Virus record (IMG/VR): IMGVR_UViG_3300025141_000711
Span: 1-24,610 of that record
Length of the DNA stretch: 24,610 bases
From: a virus
Direction: 5' to 3' (one strand)
How positions within the stretch are numbered: the first letter of the stretch is position 1; each line of letters opens with the position of its first letter. This document shows, one piece after another, positions 6,995 to 24,292 of the stretch. The translations under genes and the position numbers were made by a program. The notes under the pieces are model-generated. The model saw nothing but the letters and a program-made list of their open reading frames with translations, did not search any database and was not told the DNA's origin.

Positions 6995-9862
6995 ATGTCA
7001 GTTAAAAATTTCAAATTTGTATCGCCGGGAGTCTTTGTCGATGAGATTGATAATTCTCAGGTCCCACGCGAACCAGGCCCCATCGGCCCAGTAGTTATTG
7101 GCCGCGCAGAAAAGGGCCCCTCCCTCCGACCAGTTGAGGTTACGTCGTTTTCAGATTTTGTTCAGAAATTTGGTACACCAAGTGCCGGCGATTCCGGCAA
7201 TGATGTTTGGCGCACCGGCAACAACAAGACTGCATGTACTTATGGAATGTATGCAGCCCAAGCATATTTAAAAAATAATTCTCCTTTAACCTATGTTCGT
7301 TTATTGGGTGCCCAGACAACTGCTGATGGTGGCCCTACGGCGACTGGCGGCAAGGCCGGTTGGGCACAAACTAACGCATGGGGTCTTTTTATATTTGAGT
7401 CTGGCTCTAGTGGTACCGCTTTAACAGGTGCTTTGGGCGCGATTATATATGCTAATGGTACCGCTTCGCCTGGATTGTCCGGAACTATTGCTTTCGCTCC
7501 CCGCGACGCCGACGACGCGACGCCGATTCGACCCAGCGTGGGGGTTTTCTCGGGCTCACAAGTGCTTATTGGAGACACTGGCACAGAATTCGAATTTAAT
7601 CTGAGAATGCCGGGATATTCAGGCTCCACCCAGGCCGCTGTCTTAAAAACAACACTTAATTTTAGTGAGAACAGTCCGCGTTATATTCGAAAGGTACTAA
7701 ATACCAACCCACAATTAATGAACAGCGGCATCACTAGCGGCGAGACGAGAGTTAATTATTTCTTGGGAGAGACATTTGACCGCCACGTGAAAGCAAACAT
7801 TACCGGAGGTACTCTCAATAAGACATATGCGGCTTTGGTAAAATTATATAGCGCCGGCAGTTCGCTCAACGGAGCTACCTTCTATGGTTCCGCCCAGTCT
7901 GCACAAACCCCATGGATTGTTAGTTGTAATCTGGGATCTGGACAGAAAAACCTATTAAGGTTCCATGCTTTAGATGTACAGGGCGACTGGACTAATAAGA
8001 ATATTAAAATTTCAATTCAAGATATCAAGGTATCATCAAATGATACCACAGATTATGGCACATTTACGGTCGTCGTGCGATCGCTTAGTGATTCAGACAA
8101 CGTTGTAAGAGTTATTGAACAATTTACTAATTGCAATCTTAACCCTAATTCGCTGGATTACGTGGCGCGCAAGGTCGGTGACAAATATCGGCAGTGGTCT
8201 GAGACTGAGAGGCGATACTATGAAACTGGCGATTGGGATAATCGGTCTGATTTTATTCGCGTTGAGGCGGCTTCTGATGTCGATGGTGGTATTTTAAATG
8301 CTAGTTACTTGCCATTTGGTTTCAAAGGAATTACCAAGTGGGCCGATGAGACCTTTACTAGCGGCAGCAACGGCGTCGGCACCGCCAACACCGGTTCGTG
8401 GGTCACTGGCTCTGCGAATAACTGGACTGCGCCAGCAAAAAATCCTGTACCGGAATATTGTATTGGTGCTAATGGCTGGCTAATTCTTAGTGGTACGGCC
8501 GGCACTGACGTTTCATGTAAGCTGTTGTACCCGGCACCTGAGTTGCGCGTTGCTGCTGTTTCTGGCAACTTAAGTGTTAAAACAGATGCCTATTTCGGAT
8601 TCCAGGTTTGGAAGACTAGCGGCGGTACTGTTTTTGATACTTCAACAATTGACATGCTGCGACCTCGCGGCGGTATTGTTGGAAGTATGTTCGCCGGCGC
8701 CTCGTCCGGCGTGCGCGGCACATCAACTGTATTTAGCTTAGATGATGTATCAGGGTCTGGTGTCTGGGCTCAGGGCAATTATGATGCCGGCACGTCTCTC
8801 ACGAGAACAAACGGCCGGGTATCGGGTGTCCTTGATGCTGGTTACGACCGATTCACCGTACCTATGTATGGTGGGTTTGACGGCATGGATATTGGCGAGA
8901 TGGACTCCTTTGCGAATCGAAATATTGGTTCGGCTGATCTAACAAGTTATGAATTTAACTCTTTCCACAGAGCGCTCGATTCGTTAGCGGACCCAGAAGT
9001 GGTCGAGATGAATCTTGCCACAATTCCGGGTTGCACCAATTCTGGTCTGACCTCGAACTTGATTAATATTTGTGAAGACCGCGCAGATGCTCTTGCTATT
9101 ATTGATTTGCCTGATGGCTTATCACCTCGAGAAGAGGGCACATCTGTTAGTAGAAATAACATTGCTAGCACCATTACTTCGGCGGTAAGCAATCTTCGGG
9201 CGAGAGGACTAAACAGCTCTTATGGTTGTTGCTTCTATCCGTGGGTTCGAGCTAGAGACACTATCAGCGGTAATATGCTTTGGTTGCCTCCTTCAGTGGC
9301 CGCTTTGGGTACTTTCTCAAGTTCCCAGCGTAAGACGCAGGTTTGGTTTGCCCCTGCTGGGTTTAATCGCGGCGGACTTACTGAGGGCGCTGCTGGTATC
9401 CCGGTCGTTGATGTGGCACACCAGCTACGACGTAAGGACCGTGATGATCTTTACGCGGCAAACATTAACCCGATCGCGAAGTTCCCGGCTGAGGGTATCG
9501 TAATCTTTGGTCAGAAGACGCTGCAGATCACGCCGTCTGCTCTGGACCGCATTAACGTGCGCCGGCTGATGATTTTCGTGAAGAAGCGTATTTCCCAGAT
9601 GGCGGCAACGATTCTTTTTGATCCCAATGTTCCAACTACTTGGGCACGATTTAAGTCACGCGCAGGGCCGTTTCTTGAGGATGTAAAAACTAATTTTGGT
9701 TTATCGGACTTTAAATTGGTCCTGGACGCCACCTCGACTACCCCTGATTTGATCGACAGAAACATTTTATATGCTAAGATTTACTTGAAGCCAACCAGAG
9801 CAATAGAGTTTATCGCAATTGATTTTAATATCAGCAGAACGGGAGCATCATTTAACGATTAA
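6995..9862 (+). CDS. Contractile tail sheath protein, gp18-like
   Basis: A 955-residue protein beginning MSVKNFKFVSPGVFVDEIDNS, the usual N-terminal strand of sheath subunits that hooks onto the neighbouring subunit, followed by GPIGPVVIGRAEKGP, also typical. The conserved C-terminal domain occupies about residues 780-955: QLRRKDRDDLYAANINPIA, IVIFGQKTL, LDRINVRRLMIFVKKRI and a final strand IEFIAIDFNISRTGASF. The sheath surrounds the tube and contracts at infection. GGGAG is 10-15 bases before the ATG. T4 gp18 has 659 residues; about 300 extra residues here sit in the middle (roughly 130-620), rich in Gly, Ser, Thr and Asn and probably forming surface-exposed domains. It precedes the tube gene, as 18 precedes 19 in T4. 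Confidence 0.95.
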   Translation: MSVKNFKFVSPGVFVDEIDNSQVPREPGPIGPVVIGRAEKGPSLRPVEVTSFSDFVQKFGTPSAGDSGNDVWRTGNNKTACTYGMYAAQAYLKNNSPLTYVRLLGAQTTADGGPTATGGKAGWAQTNAWGLFIFESGSSGTALTGALGAIIYANGTASPGLSGTIAFAPRDADDATPIRPSVGVFSGSQVLIGDTGTEFEFNLRMPGYSGSTQAAVLKTTLNFSENSPRYIRKVLNTNPQLMNSGITSGETRVNYFLGETFDRHVKANITGGTLNKTYAALVKLYSAGSSLNGATFYGSAQSAQTPWIVSCNLGSGQKNLLRFHALDVQGDWTNKNIKISIQDIKVSSNDTTDYGTFTVVVRSLSDSDNVVRVIEQFTNCNLNPNSLDYVARKVGDKYRQWSETERRYYETGDWDNRSDFIRVEAASDVDGGILNASYLPFGFKGITKWADETFTSGSNGVGTANTGSWVTGSANNWTAPAKNPVPEYCIGANGWLILSGTAGTDVSCKLLYPAPELRVAAVSGNLSVKTDAYFGFQVWKTSGGTVFDTSTIDMLRPRGGIVGSMFAGASSGVRGTSTVFSLDDVSGSGVWAQGNYDAGTSLTRTNGRVSGVLDAGYDRFTVPMYGGFDGMDIGEMDSFANRNIGSADLTSYEFNSFHRALDSLADPEVVEMNLATIPGCTNSGLTSNLINICEDRADALAIIDLPDGLSPREEGTSVSRNNIASTITSAVSNLRARGLNSSYGCCFYPWVRARDTISGNMLWLPPSVAALGTFSSSQRKTQVWFAPAGFNRGGLTEGAAGIPVVDVAHQLRRKDRDDLYAANINPIAKFPAEGIVIFGQKTLQITPSALDRINVRRLMIFVKKRISQMAATILFDPNVPTTWARFKSRAGPFLEDVKTNFGLSDFKLVLDATSTTPDLIDRNILYAKIYLKPTRAIEFIAIDFNISRTGASFND

Positions 9863-20679: not shown

Positions 20680-21867
20680 TTGTTATTTCAGCTCTTAGAT
20701 CACAAAAGTGATTGTATTGGCTTCTATGCCGAAAATATTATCAATCCCACCCCTTTGCTGCCAACAGAAGGAAGCACCTGGGAGTACTCGCGTCACCTCC
20801 CGGGCGATTGTTATGAATTGGGGCGCATTTACAGCCACGGAGCGTCCCTTACAACCGTTTGTCCAGAAGAAATGAAGGAGGAGTGGTCTCACATTAAGAA
20901 GACGCTTAAATCGTGCCTCAAAGCCTTCAACACATCGCGGCTTTCATTGGAAGAAAATTGTTTTTATGACGTTCTTCCGGAATATTTTCTTTATGAATAT
21001 CTAGCGGCCAAAAATAAGATCACGGAACACGTTTTGGAGACTTTAGAGCGCCCCGCGAACTATGATTTTATGTATAATCTTGTAGAAATGCTTTCTGATA
21101 TTCGGGCCCGGGCATTAAATATTAAAACTAGTCCAATTCAGCATCTTTTGAGTTCCGTCCGCGGACAAAACTTTCACCGCACATTACAAACAGTCAAGCA
21201 TATTTGTGATTATAACCCTTGGGGTACTATTACGGGGCGCCTTTCAACAAATTCGAATAGTTTGCCAATTCTTACAATGAACAAAGAGTATCGGTCATGC
21301 ATTCAGCCGAAGAATGATTGGCTCGTGGAACTTGATTTTAACGCGGCAGAGTTGAGGGTACTTCTGGCACTTTCTGGAGTAGAGCAGCCCAAAAATGATA
21401 TTCATAGCTGGAATGTAAAGAACATTTTTGATAGTAAGCTTACCCGAGAAGAAGCCAAGGTGAAAACCTTCGCGTGGTTGTATTCTAATAAGGAAAACAA
21501 GGACTTAGAGAGCCTCTACAACAAGAAAATAGTCCGGGATAAGTACTGGGATGGCTTAAAAATCGAGACAGATTATGGTAGAATAATAGAGAATGTAGAT
21601 GAGCACCATGCTCTCAACTACATCGTTCAGAGCACCACAATTGATATGGTGCACGAACAGGCTTACAAAGTCTATGAGCTTTTGAAGGGGAGAAAGAGCC
21701 ACATCGCATTTCTTATTCACGACGCCGTGTATATCGACCTCGCCGAAGAGGATCGCTACGAAATACTAAATTTGCTTGACACGTTCAAGAAGACACGTTA
21801 TAATATGTTCAAGGTTAATGTCTCCGCTGGTAAAAGTCTGGGAGAAATGAAGGAATTAAAATTATGA
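20680..21867 (+). CDS. Compact family-A DNA polymerase without exonuclease domain
   Basis: A 395-residue protein starting at TTG 20680 with AAGGAG five bases upstream. It holds the palm and fingers of family A: TITGRLST at 183-190 (TGRLSS motif), motif A LDFNAAELR with D219 and E224, motif B RxxxKxxxFxxxY as R256, K260, F264, Y268, a Q317 near 'N..vQsttiD' (313-322), and motif C I346-H347-D348-A349. The two catalytic aspartates D219 and D348 remain, but the motif-C Glu after them is Ala and motif-B Gly after Tyr is Ser. The gap between motifs A and B is 37 residues (49 in E. coli Pol I) and between B and C about 88 (124 in Pol I), so the fingers are compact. No 3'-5' or 5'-3' nuclease domain fits. 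T4 itself uses family B; a separated family-A polymerase occurs in Rhodothermus phage RM378. It overlaps the next gene by 4 bases (ATGA). Confidence 0.88.
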   Translation: MLFQLLDHKSDCIGFYAENIINPTPLLPTEGSTWEYSRHLPGDCYELGRIYSHGASLTTVCPEEMKEEWSHIKKTLKSCLKAFNTSRLSLEENCFYDVLPEYFLYEYLAAKNKITEHVLETLERPANYDFMYNLVEMLSDIRARALNIKTSPIQHLLSSVRGQNFHRTLQTVKHICDYNPWGTITGRLSTNSNSLPILTMNKEYRSCIQPKNDWLVELDFNAAELRVLLALSGVEQPKNDIHSWNVKNIFDSKLTREEAKVKTFAWLYSNKENKDLESLYNKKIVRDKYWDGLKIETDYGRIIENVDEHHALNYIVQSTTIDMVHEQAYKVYELLKGRKSHIAFLIHDAVYIDLAEEDRYEILNLLDTFKKTRYNMFKVNVSAGKSLGEMKELKL

Positions 21868-22082
21868 AGAACAATGTGATAGATATAAAGGCAGCTAAGC
21901 ATCATATCGCGTCACCGAAGCGTGCCATCACCCCGATCGATGGTGTCTCAGGATACATCAGACTGGAAATTATCGGGGTCTTAGAGGAGTGCGCGCTAGC
22001 ATTTGAGTGTGACTACCAAGAATTGACCGTTGGTGATGTGTTAGAGTATTTGGTGGCCCGGGAAGAAGAGCGTCGGCGATGA
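21864..22082 (+). CDS. Small protein, coupled to polymerase and MazG-like genes, function unknown
   Basis: A 72-residue protein whose ATG overlaps the polymerase stop (ATGA) and whose own stop overlaps the start of the next gene (ATGA), so it is translated as part of the same chain. The N-terminus is basic and His-rich (DIKAAKHHIASPKRA), the second half a helix ending in EEERRR. No motif was recognised; a small nucleotide-metabolism or replication partner is only a positional guess. Confidence 0.7.
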   Translation: MKNNVIDIKAAKHHIASPKRAITPIDGVSGYIRLEIIGVLEECALAFECDYQELTVGDVLEYLVAREEERRR

Positions 22083-22402
22083 GTGAGAAGAAACGCTATA
22101 ACAAACTCGTCCGCGACCGCATCCCCGAAATTATCGAGGAAGCCGGGAAGGACTTTAGTGTCCGACAAGAGCAAGGAGACCGTCTCAAGGATTATGCGCT
22201 GCGCAAACTTCAGGAGGAAGTAATGGAATTCGTAGAGAACCCTTGCGCCGAGGAAGCAGCTGACATTATGGAAATAATGAATTTTATTTGCCATCGACTT
22301 GGCATCCACGAACATACGATCTTGGCTGAGCACACCGTGAAACACGTCACCCGCGGCGGATTTGATATGGGTTTTATTTTGGAATGGGTTGAAGAAAAAT
22401 GA
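22079..22402 (+). CDS. MazG-like nucleotide pyrophosphohydrolase
   Basis: A 107-residue protein with the start KRYNKLVRDRIPEIIEEAGK, a hallmark of the 'phosphoribosyl-ATP pyrophosphohydrolase-like' branch of the all-alpha NTP-PPase (MazG) superfamily. The metal-binding acids are in place: K43-L-Q-E46-E47-x2-E50 in the first helix and E58-E59-x2-D62-x2-E65 in the next. The C-terminal RGGFDMGF (92-99) matches the 'rGgF..g' end of these proteins. Such enzymes hydrolyse nucleoside triphosphates to monophosphates; in phages they may remove aberrant nucleotides or alarmones or help adjust dNTP pools. The ATG overlaps the preceding stop and the TGA overlaps the next ATG (ATGA both times), so it is co-translated with its neighbours. 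Substrate unknown. Confidence 0.88.
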   Translation: MSEKKRYNKLVRDRIPEIIEEAGKDFSVRQEQGDRLKDYALRKLQEEVMEFVENPCAEEAADIMEIMNFICHRLGIHEHTILAEHTVKHVTRGGFDMGFILEWVEEK

Positions 22403-23241
22403 TAATTGTGGGTCTCGGCAACGCCGGCGGCAATATTGCGAGGGCTTTTTCAAAGTATCCGCAATATACGACCATTAGTATCGACACCACTAAGGAAGCA
22501 GATATTACAATTAGAAAAAGGGCTAGCCACGAAGAGTATGATACTCATTTCCCCAATTTGAAAAAGAAACTTAAATTTTTTAACAGTGATATACTACTCG
22601 CCGTTGCGGGCTCCGGCAAAATATCGGGAGGCGTTCTAAGACTCCTGGAGCAGCTAAGGACAAACCGGGTTACGGTGCTCTACATTCAGTCCGATCTTTC
22701 AATGGCCAGTGAAATACAAAAAATACAAGAGAAAATCGTTAAAAATATCTTGCAAGAATATGCTCGTTCAGGTATGATAGAAGCAGTCTGGTTGGCAGAT
22801 AACCAGATGATTGAGAAAGGAATCGGCGCTGTGCCAATTATGGGATACTACGATGTACTTAATCAGGCAGTTGTTAATACAATTCATATGATTAACGTAT
22901 TTAGAAACTCAGAGCCGGTCATAGGCAATTTTATCGAGCCCTCAGAGCTAAGTCGGATTGCCACCATTGGCGTACTCGATATCGAGCAATCAACAGAAAA
23001 GTGGTTTTTTGACTTGACAAACGCGCGTGAGGTGGTATACTACTATGGTATCAATGAGATCGAGCTTAAGGAAGATGGAACTTTGTTCAACATAATAACA
23101 GATTATGTCAAATCCCAGTTAGACGATAATGTTAATGTTTCATACGGAGTGTTTAAAACCACCTATGACCAGAAATATTGTTATTGCATTAAGTATTCAT
23201 CTATGGTACAATCATTTTTAGACGATCAGGATATTAGCTGA
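22399..23241 (+). CDS. Divergent FtsZ/tubulin-like protein
   Basis: A 280-residue protein overlapping the MazG-like stop (ATGA). The order of elements follows FtsZ: strand plus T1-like loop G5-LGNAGGN (5-12); a second strand ISIDTT ending in an acid, D29; the 'DILLAVAGSGKISGG' strand with a Gly-rich loop at 70-78 in place of the GGGTGSG tubulin signature; then VTVLYIQSDL (91-100), a long helix, WLADNQMIE (131-139) where FtsZ has 'vIPNDrLl', a helix YYDVLNQAVVNTI (150-162), and NFIEPSELSRIATIG (177-191) at the place of the catalytic T7 loop NxDFADVR, with E180 and E183. FtsZ/PhuZ/TubZ polymerise with GTP and position DNA or divide cells. The Gly-rich loop has lost one glycine/threonine set, so GTP use needs checking. 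A Rossmann-type NAD-binding protein is the main alternative. It sits beside gp32, suggesting a link with DNA replication or compartment. Confidence 0.62.
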   Translation: MIIVGLGNAGGNIARAFSKYPQYTTISIDTTKEADITIRKRASHEEYDTHFPNLKKKLKFFNSDILLAVAGSGKISGGVLRLLEQLRTNRVTVLYIQSDLSMASEIQKIQEKIVKNILQEYARSGMIEAVWLADNQMIEKGIGAVPIMGYYDVLNQAVVNTIHMINVFRNSEPVIGNFIEPSELSRIATIGVLDIEQSTEKWFFDLTNAREVVYYYGINEIELKEDGTLFNIITDYVKSQLDDNVNVSYGVFKTTYDQKYCYCIKYSSMVQSFLDDQDIS

Positions 23242-23275: not shown

Positions 23276-24046
23276 ATGGGTATTAATTTAGACAAGATGC
23301 GAGACAAGCTCGCTAACCTTCGAGGAGACGGAAACTCAGATTCAGTGTTCTGGCGCCCCGAGGACGGGGAACAGACTATTCGCATCGTGCCGACGGCCGA
23401 TGGGGACCCCTTCAAGGAGATGCATTTTCATTATAATGTAGAAAAGGGGGGCTTTTTGTGCCCCAAACGCAACTACGGCGACGCATGTCCCGTTTGTGAA
23501 TTCGCCTCGCAGCTTTGGCGCGAGGGAGTCGATAACAACGATGATCACAGCAAGAAGACTGCAAAGTCTCTTTTCGTGCGACAGCGCTTTTTCAGCCCCG
23601 TGATGGTTCGCGGTGAGGAAGAGAAGGGTGTGCGTGTATGGGGTTATGGCAAGACTGCCTACGAGAACCTCTTGACGCTCGTGCTTAATCCGGAGTATGG
23701 TGATATCACCGATACCGAAGCAGGCACGGATCTCACAATGACCTACGGGAAGCCACCAGGCGCTTCCTTCCCACAGACGAAGCTTGTGCCTCGTCGCCGG
23801 TCATCCCCGCTATGCGAGGACTTGACGCCCGAGAAGTGCGTCGAACTCCTAGACAGCATCCCAGATTTTGGGGGCCTATTTGAGCGAAAGACGACTTCAG
23901 ATGTCCAGAATATACTGGATAATTTTGTTCACTCCCAGGTCGAAGACCCGGAATCAGTGAGCAGCGAGACCACGAAGTATGGAAAGACCACGGACAGCGA
24001 AACCAACGCTGTCGACCAAGCTTTCGCAGAGTTAGGGTCTCTTTAA
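23276..24046 (+). CDS. Single-stranded DNA-binding protein, gp32-like
   Basis: A 256-residue protein with a basic start (MGINLDKMRDKLANLRGDG) and AAAGGAAAA before the ATG. The zinc-binding cluster typical of gp32 is present: H50 and H52 (MHFHYN), C62 (FLCPKR) and C71-PV-C74 (ACPVCEF), close to T4's H64/C77/C87/C90. Conserved Trp/Phe/Lys stretches follow (ENLLTLVLNPEYGDITD and the DLTMTYGKPPG turn). The C-terminus ends in SETNAVDQAFAELGSL, an acidic/hydrophobic tail that in T4 recruits replication proteins. Shorter than T4 gp32 (301). It coats unwound DNA during replication, recombination and repair. A conserved hairpin follows 10-40 bases downstream, and a leader hairpin precedes it. No family-B polymerase or clamp is in view; the partner polymerase may be the family-A gene upstream. 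Confidence 0.92.
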   Translation: MGINLDKMRDKLANLRGDGNSDSVFWRPEDGEQTIRIVPTADGDPFKEMHFHYNVEKGGFLCPKRNYGDACPVCEFASQLWREGVDNNDDHSKKTAKSLFVRQRFFSPVMVRGEEEKGVRVWGYGKTAYENLLTLVLNPEYGDITDTEAGTDLTMTYGKPPGASFPQTKLVPRRRSSPLCEDLTPEKCVELLDSIPDFGGLFERKTTSDVQNILDNFVHSQVEDPESVSSETTKYGKTTDSETNAVDQAFAELGSL

Positions 24047-24103: not shown

Positions 24104-24292
24104 ATGACTACTGAAACCAATCGTCTAGAACAACTGATTACACTCCTTGAGGAAACTCGGGCCGATCACGATAAGTTCTTTACTAGCGGCAACAACGCCG
24201 CAGGAACGCGTCTTCGTAAAACTATGCAGGAAGTGAAGACGCTAGCTCAGGCACTCCGCGTCGAGGTCCAAGACACCAAAAACGCAGAGTAA
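24104..24292 (+). CDS. Hc1 (histone H1-like) family DNA-binding protein
   Basis: A 62-residue protein with AAGGAAG upstream of the ATG. LEQLITLLEETRADHDKFF then TSGNNAAGTRLRKTMQEVKTLAQALRVEV: the 'GNxAAGtRlRk.mqE.K.lAq.lR' pattern (residues about 29-55) is that of the Hc1-type histone-like proteins of Chlamydiae and many Bacteroidota, as I know them. The usual lysine/alanine-rich C-terminal tail is missing, so only the folded helical hairpin remains. It probably binds DNA and may pack or protect phage or host DNA. Located right after gp32 and separated by a conserved hairpin. The stop TAA is the loop of a CAGAG/CTCTG hairpin (24285-24297). Confidence 0.7.
   Translation: MTTETNRLEQLITLLEETRADHDKFFTSGNNAAGTRLRKTMQEVKTLAQALRVEVQDTKNAE

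Follow-up and report, generated by a model that had tools for sequence, protein, structure and literature searches.

Gene content of the locus

The window, by which we mean the whole stretch of 24,610 nucleotides of viral DNA analyzed here, harbors a gene whose 280 aa product is predicted to adopt the tubulin/FtsZ fold. It is embedded in a set of replication genes. The genes at the locus and the parts of the encoded protein are as follows:

20680..21867, + strand: short family-A DNA polymerase, 395 aa (PF00476, E 1.8e-16); found in 69 of 74 loci
21864..22082, + strand: small ORF, 72 aa; found in only 5 of 74 loci
22079..22402, + strand: MazG-like ORF of the all-alpha NTP pyrophosphatase type, 107 aa; found in 49 of 74 loci
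22399..23241, + strand: predicted tubulin/FtsZ-fold gene, 280 aa, ATG start, no internal stop
22405..22434, + strand: T1 nucleotide-binding box IVGLGNAGGN, residues 3-12 (aligned with the FtsZ G box by hhalign)
22483..22485, + strand: D29 at the end of S2 (T2 region), 93% conserved
22606..22632, + strand: T4 phosphate loop AGSGKISGG, residues 70-78, altered relative to GGGTGSGA
22750..22773, + strand: end of helix H5, LQEYARSG, residues 118-125, the block with the highest conservation in the family
22789..22815, + strand: S6/T6, WLADNQMIE, residues 131-139, with N135 as guanine-contact residue (aligned with FtsZ IPNDKLL by hhalign)
22846..22905, + strand: central helix H7, YYDVLNQAVVNTIHMINVFR, residues 150-169 (DSSP on the model)
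22906..22956, + strand: T7 region (residues 170-186), lacking H8 and any conserved acid (DSSP on the model)
22957..23199, + strand: C-terminal (activation) domain, residues 187-267, within the CetZ alignment of residues 1-275
23218..23238, + strand: acidic C-terminal tail LDDQDIS, predicted to be disordered (pLDDT below 50 for residues 274-280)
23276..24046, + strand: gp32-like single-strand DNA-binding protein (PF08804, E 1.4e-14; phrog_1192, E 1.3e-21)
24104..24292, + strand: histone H1-like (Hc1) protein, 62 aa (PF07432, E 4.3e-19)

The initial annotation had described the gene as coupled by ATGA to a MazG-like gene and placed directly before gp32. Both statements are correct: the start overlaps the 107-aa ORF by 4 bases, and a gap of 34 bases separates the gene from gp32. 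The motifs it quoted (GLGNAGGN at 5-12, SIDTT with D29, AGSGKISGG at 70-78, WLADNQMIE at 131-139 and NFIEPSELSRIA at 177-188) are also where it had placed them. Two of its labels call for comment. The name MazG-like is backed by an invariant EExxE...ExxD pattern, but the Pfam matches to MazG-like and dUTPase_2 are weak and none exceeds the cut-off. The term T4-type operon fits the virion genes and gp32, but the polymerase is a short family-A enzyme. We found no tblastn match for this polymerase at E 1e-5 among 50,697 phage records.

The gene order is shared by 74 non-redundant loci, in which baseplate genes are followed by the family-A polymerase, the MazG-like ORF where present, the tubulin gene and gp32, with RecA-like, 5'-3' exonuclease and DnaB-like genes further downstream. 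The start of the tubulin gene overlaps the preceding gene in nearly all loci. In 18 non-redundant loci that start adjoins or overlaps the end of the polymerase gene (-16 to +1 bases); elsewhere the two can be as much as 2.3 kb apart, with other genes in between. A few further features of these genomes were recorded along the way. The short 395-aa polymerase is typical of the tubulin-carrying lineage, and the Hc1-type gene after gp32 also occurs in about 19 related loci. In the tail sheath protein of the window (955 aa, 6995-9862), matches to the phrog_23 profile (496 positions) are spread across the full length, which suggests large inserts.

Predicted fold and sequence relatives

An AlphaFold2 model built from the 74-member alignment reached a pLDDT of 92.6 and a pTM of 0.90. 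Its order of strands and helices resembles that of FtsZ and tubulin and includes a 20-residue H7. The modeled C-terminal domain consists of strands 187-194, 199-202 and 209-219, a helix at 229-239 and strands 245-254 and 260-267. When the model was compared with the PDB by Foldseek, the 50 best matches were all FtsZ, CetZ or TubZ structures (E 4e-12 to 1e-10, Foldseek probability 1.00). VIA-align gave a Z of 24.9 for CetZ (2.7 A, 253 residues, model residues 1-275), followed by TubZ with 22.8 (271 residues), FtsZ with 22.5 and tubulins with 21.5. The superfamily was unchanged for a second model, that of the member L319, which is 30% identical to the window protein (pLDDT 94.7, Z 24.1 for CetZ). 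Among the predicted viral structures of BFVD, the best match was A0A6J5RW92 (E 2.6e-12), with tubulin/PhuZ-type proteins next at weaker scores. This uncultured Caudovirales protein is annotated as FtsZ; at 452 aa and 15% identity, it is a separate protein.

Plain sequence searches return little of this relationship. None of the families in PHROGs, Pfam and NCBIfam claims the protein, all matches being below the cut-off or due to chance. The Pfam Tubulin profile PF00091 matches 2 of 22 members (best E 0.019) and scores above the gathering cut-off in none of 10 contigs, while phmmer and hmmsearch against the PDB reach CetZ at E 0.8-2.6 only. The top Pfam match of the window protein is in fact TrkA_N, with an E of 0.0026 that is under the curated cut-off (3e-4 within the family). 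An ordinary NAD(P)-binding Rossmann protein of this type, similar to FtsZ in nothing but the glycine box, would explain that match, but it would not account for a model in which both tubulin domains align over residues 1-275 with a Z of 24.9 and in which all top PDB matches belong to the tubulin superfamily. We reject the Rossmann reading at the level of the predicted structure and regard its chances as negligible.

Comparison of profiles was more informative. In local hhalign alignments (global ones were not useful), the family profile scored 35.6 against PhuZ, compared with 14.9 +/- 2.5 (maximum 22.4) for 100 column-shuffled controls, and 27.6 against FtsZ, compared with 15.0 +/- 2.3 (maximum 23.3). 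PhuZ thus had the best profile score among the phage and FtsZ comparisons made; the PhuZ references were taken from phage records, as a PhuZ scan of the viral contigs gave no match. The alignment with FtsZ is collinear from the G box through H7. Curated cut-offs are not reached by plain HMM searches, but the profile-profile scores are above chance and point to homology with FtsZ and PhuZ.

The initial annotation had suggested structure prediction and a structure-based search as checks on its proposal of a divergent FtsZ/tubulin-like protein. Both bear the proposal out, and neither of the outcomes it had named as contrary was found: the predicted fold is not of the plain Rossmann type, and the best match lies within the superfamily. 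Judging from the models, the protein is almost certainly a strongly derived member of the tubulin/FtsZ superfamily and would found a third phage tubulin family, separate from both PhuZ and TubZ. The protein does not fit the sequence features of FtsZ, and membership in PhuZ or TubZ is unsupported. It should be given a family name of its own.

Relatives are common in IMG/VR, where single-protein and profile scans returned 54 and 39 sequences and the largest scan at least 597. Members were aligned in steps of 22, 74 and finally 183 distinct sequences, the most distant sharing 28% identity with the window protein. In close pairs, dN/dS ranges from 0.03 to 0.16; the tubulin-fold protein is therefore under strong purifying selection. 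Outside this collection the gene is absent from all sets tested: besides the named families, these are 50,697 phage records, in which tblastn with four family members matched nothing, and 84,980 species genomes, in which a family scan found no relatives.

Conserved and lost motifs

The 183 aligned members show which parts of the nucleotide pocket are retained. The T1 glycines are nearly invariant (G5 99%, G7 99%, G10 97%), and so are the two guanine-contact asparagines (N135 in T6, 95%; N155, which lies near the guanine in H7, 96%). In the T4 loop, conservation is 97% for G71, 85% for G73, 86% for S76 and 80% for G77, and the signature GGGTG[TSA]G was not found in any of the 183 members. Reading the GSGK of the window protein as a P-loop was rejected, as only 20% of the members have K74. 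The T3 glycine loop has been lost; E45 (94%) and Y47 (96%) are found in that region. H8 is missing as well: in both models (window protein and L319), H7 leads to S7 without an intervening helix.

An E-containing T7 loop had also been proposed, with E180 as the acid. This part of the proposal does not hold for the family. Position 180 carries E in no more than 24% of the members and position 183 carries E or D in 69%, which leaves a catalytic T7 loop unsupported. E172 also varies (E or D in 67%), no acid is fixed between residues 170 and 186, and even N.[DE]..[DEQ], a loose form of the T7 signature NxDxx[DE], occurs in only 2 of 183 members. The doubt that the initial annotation had cast on GTP hydrolysis, on the other hand, now has support at the level of the family, from the altered T4 glycine motif, the lost T3 loop and H8 and the lack of a conserved T7 acid.

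The most invariant positions are new ones, namely Q119, R123 and S124 in H5 (100%) and H163 (99%) and N166 (96%) in H7, where H163, M164 and N166 occupy the far end of the helix. The end of H5 and the lower part of H7 probably point away from the nucleotide and toward the next subunit of a filament, a placement derived from the strand and helix topology rather than from inspected coordinates. This block is retained even in a subclade with degraded nucleotide motifs (L306, L311, L313, L316, L317 and L319; for example L319 5197-6057 and L316 5185-6009). Its members carry sequences such as GIGNASSAI and GASMSSIYSL and have D29 replaced, and they keep LQ[EQ]Y[AT]RSG and the H7 motif. The tail LDDQ[DE]I[SG] is kept in the clade of the window only and is missing from the rest of the tubulin family. 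It is possibly a short binding peptide.

A core gene of one viral lineage

The initial annotation had treated the gene as a single odd case. We gathered loci by the polymerase alone or by gp32 alone, without using the tubulin gene, and took the best 80 loci per query. The tubulin gene was located between polymerase and gp32 in all 121 loci holding both. These loci contain 99 distinct tubulin genes, 94 of which were absent from the earlier tubulin-based set. Because only the best 80 loci per query were taken, this result covers one lineage and not all T4-like phages. Within one large, probably Far-T4-like lineage of uncultured viruses, the tubulin gene is a strict core gene. Contigs without a tubulin match mostly end near gp32 or the polymerase. 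A possible exception is the truncated contig L352 (1-1230), on which other genes precede gp32 and there is no tubulin gene within 1.2 kb upstream.

In comparisons of the major capsid protein, cyanophages score behind an uncultured phage, Flavobacterium phage immuto, Mel-JY01 and RM378, which give the best records. Judged by capsid and gp32, the isolates closest to the window are Flavobacterium phage immuto and Microcystis phage Mel-JY01, in which the polymerase, small ORFs, gp32, RecA, exonuclease and helicase are similarly ordered, without a tubulin gene. The family profile found no match in Mel-JY01, in the Far-T4 reference RM378 or in phiKZ. A 428-aa gene before gp32 in Mel-JY01 was considered as a counterpart and dropped, as it has no tubulin motif and the profile finds nothing in that genome. 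Far-T4-like phages have been linked to Bacteroidetes/Flavobacteriales hosts (PMC7198788, PMC13037479). The Far-T4 papers in the open-licence literature searched do not mention tubulin or FtsZ; an earlier description elsewhere is possible.

These findings suggest that, in the phages of this lineage, a tubulin-fold protein belongs to the regular complement of genes for copying DNA. This third group of phage tubulins is environmentally common and resides in T4-like viruses, and it has been missed completely by sequence annotation. It is fixed in a replication operon and is built without the usual GTPase parts. With this group it can be tested directly whether DNA replication can be organized by a tubulin fold and what role the fold has once hydrolysis is lost.

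Possible role in replication

From the fold, the gene order, the selection and the kept and lost motifs, that is, from prediction and comparison, we infer nucleotide binding, assembly, static filaments and a role in organizing replication. Translation of the gene, which lies immediately before gp32, is probably coupled to that of the phage polymerase or of the MazG-like enzyme. In the branch of the window it most likely binds a guanine nucleotide. Subunits would stack head to tail, the invariant H5/H7 face (Q119, R123, S124, H163, N166) meeting the next subunit. GTP hydrolysis is expected to be slow or absent because the T7 acid, H8 and the T3 loop are missing. Stable short filaments or oligomers could then form instead of a dynamic spindle. 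There is a precedent in PhuZ, whose residue D190 lies in the T7 loop. This residue is catalytic in 201phi2-1 (PMC4244570), and a D190A mutant does not hydrolyze GTP, yet it polymerizes, with a lower critical concentration and static filaments (PMC4244570). By analogy, a protein without T7 acid, H8 and T3 is expected to tend toward static behavior. Such assemblies may gather or anchor the polymerase, gp32, the RecA-like protein, the 5'-3' exonuclease and the DnaB-like helicase together with the phage DNA. We favor a replication-gathering assembly because the place of the gene among replication genes is fixed; the operon position in itself shows co-regulation, not function. The persistence of the H5/H7 face where nucleotide motifs decay is counted for an assembly face. 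The same degenerate subclade suggests that some members can do without nucleotide binding, and a model of GTP-driven assembly is the weaker for it. It also counts against this explanation that no neighboring gene was identified as a TubR-like partner. As a whole, this chain of nucleotide binding, static assembly and organization of replication is our best explanation, to which we give somewhat less than an even chance.

Several other functions are conceivable. The protein could be a replisome subunit, that is, a fixed accessory of the short polymerase or of gp32 (for processivity or loading, for example) that forms no filaments. In a stronger form of this idea, it is an obligatory part of the replication machine that partners a minimal family-A polymerase and gp32 through its new near-invariant face, with GTP dispensable in one branch; if true, the tubulin fold would be used outside the cytoskeleton, partition and cell division. 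The universal order of polymerase, tubulin and gp32, the 18 loci with the tubulin start at the polymerase end and a face that outlives the nucleotide motifs all fit such a subunit. So does the result that the T4-type sliding clamp profiles (PF02916, PF09116) have no match in seven, perhaps partial, contigs of 106-194 kb (L104, L107, L059, L126, L112, L084, L132). However, polymerase and tubulin can be separated by intervening genes, the nearest isolates have an otherwise similar operon without tubulin, and N135, N155 and the G box are kept in most members although they would be superfluous in a pure scaffold. We consider the accessory subunit rather unlikely, and its obligatory form no less so.

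An antagonist of host FtsZ is less likely still. A non-catalytic mimic with an FtsZ fold, an altered T4, no T3 and no T7 acid could cap or poison host FtsZ through its conserved lower face, as a T7-type face without hydrolysis might do, and so block division. A gene for host takeover, however, should belong to the early, variable genes, whereas this one occupies a fixed place between polymerase and gp32 at every locus, and the identity to FtsZ is only about 10-15%. A PhuZ-like dynamic spindle that centers phage DNA by GTP hydrolysis and dynamic instability could invoke the best profile score, which is that of PhuZ, and the largely kept nucleotide pocket. Against it, the family has no conserved T7 acid, no H8 and no GGGTGSG, nor does it have the long PhuZ-type C-terminal extension (280 versus 327 aa), and we regard such a spindle as improbable, more so than the antagonist.

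Comparison with known tubulin systems

TubZ resembles the new protein in fold, as its Z over 271 residues shows, although the TubZ chains in the PDB are longer (about 380-410 aa). It is known from Bacillus plasmids and one Clostridium phage, whereas the genes described here are located in a replication operon. Partition by TubZ needs TubR and a centromere (PMC7950403), while none of the neighbors here (polymerase, MazG-like ORF, gp32) was identified as TubR.

CetZ of archaea is the best structural match, but the identity is at most 16% and it comes from another domain of life and another context. phmmer aligns the protein weakly with CetZ2, with the DN and YD-N motifs matched up. CetZ2 retains a glycine-rich T4 loop in this alignment (GLGGGSGSGG), unlike the new family. 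With FtsZ, the protein shares the two-domain fold and an identical order of G box, T4, T6 Asn and H7; in addition to the low identity, it differs in having no GGGTGSG, T3 loop, H8 or FtsA/ZipA-type tail.

PhuZ of the phiKZ-like jumbo phages is likewise a phage-encoded protein of the tubulin/FtsZ fold. The start motifs of the two are similar (GGAG-N-IG ... IDTS in PhuZ, GLG-AGCNIA ... ID in the new family). The new family differs from PhuZ in its position in a replication operon, in its length (280 aa, against 327 aa for PhuZ of phiKZ) and in having neither H8 nor a conserved T7 acid. The long C-terminal extension of PhuZ is required for its three-stranded filament; the new protein ends at residue 280 with a disordered tail of 7 residues in its place. 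PhuZ of phiKZ matches 179 phage records and the new family none. The two may nevertheless have a distant common origin. Asesino, a nucleus-forming phage, is described as lacking PhuZ (PMC11724907), whereas the gene of the new family is present in every testable locus of its lineage.
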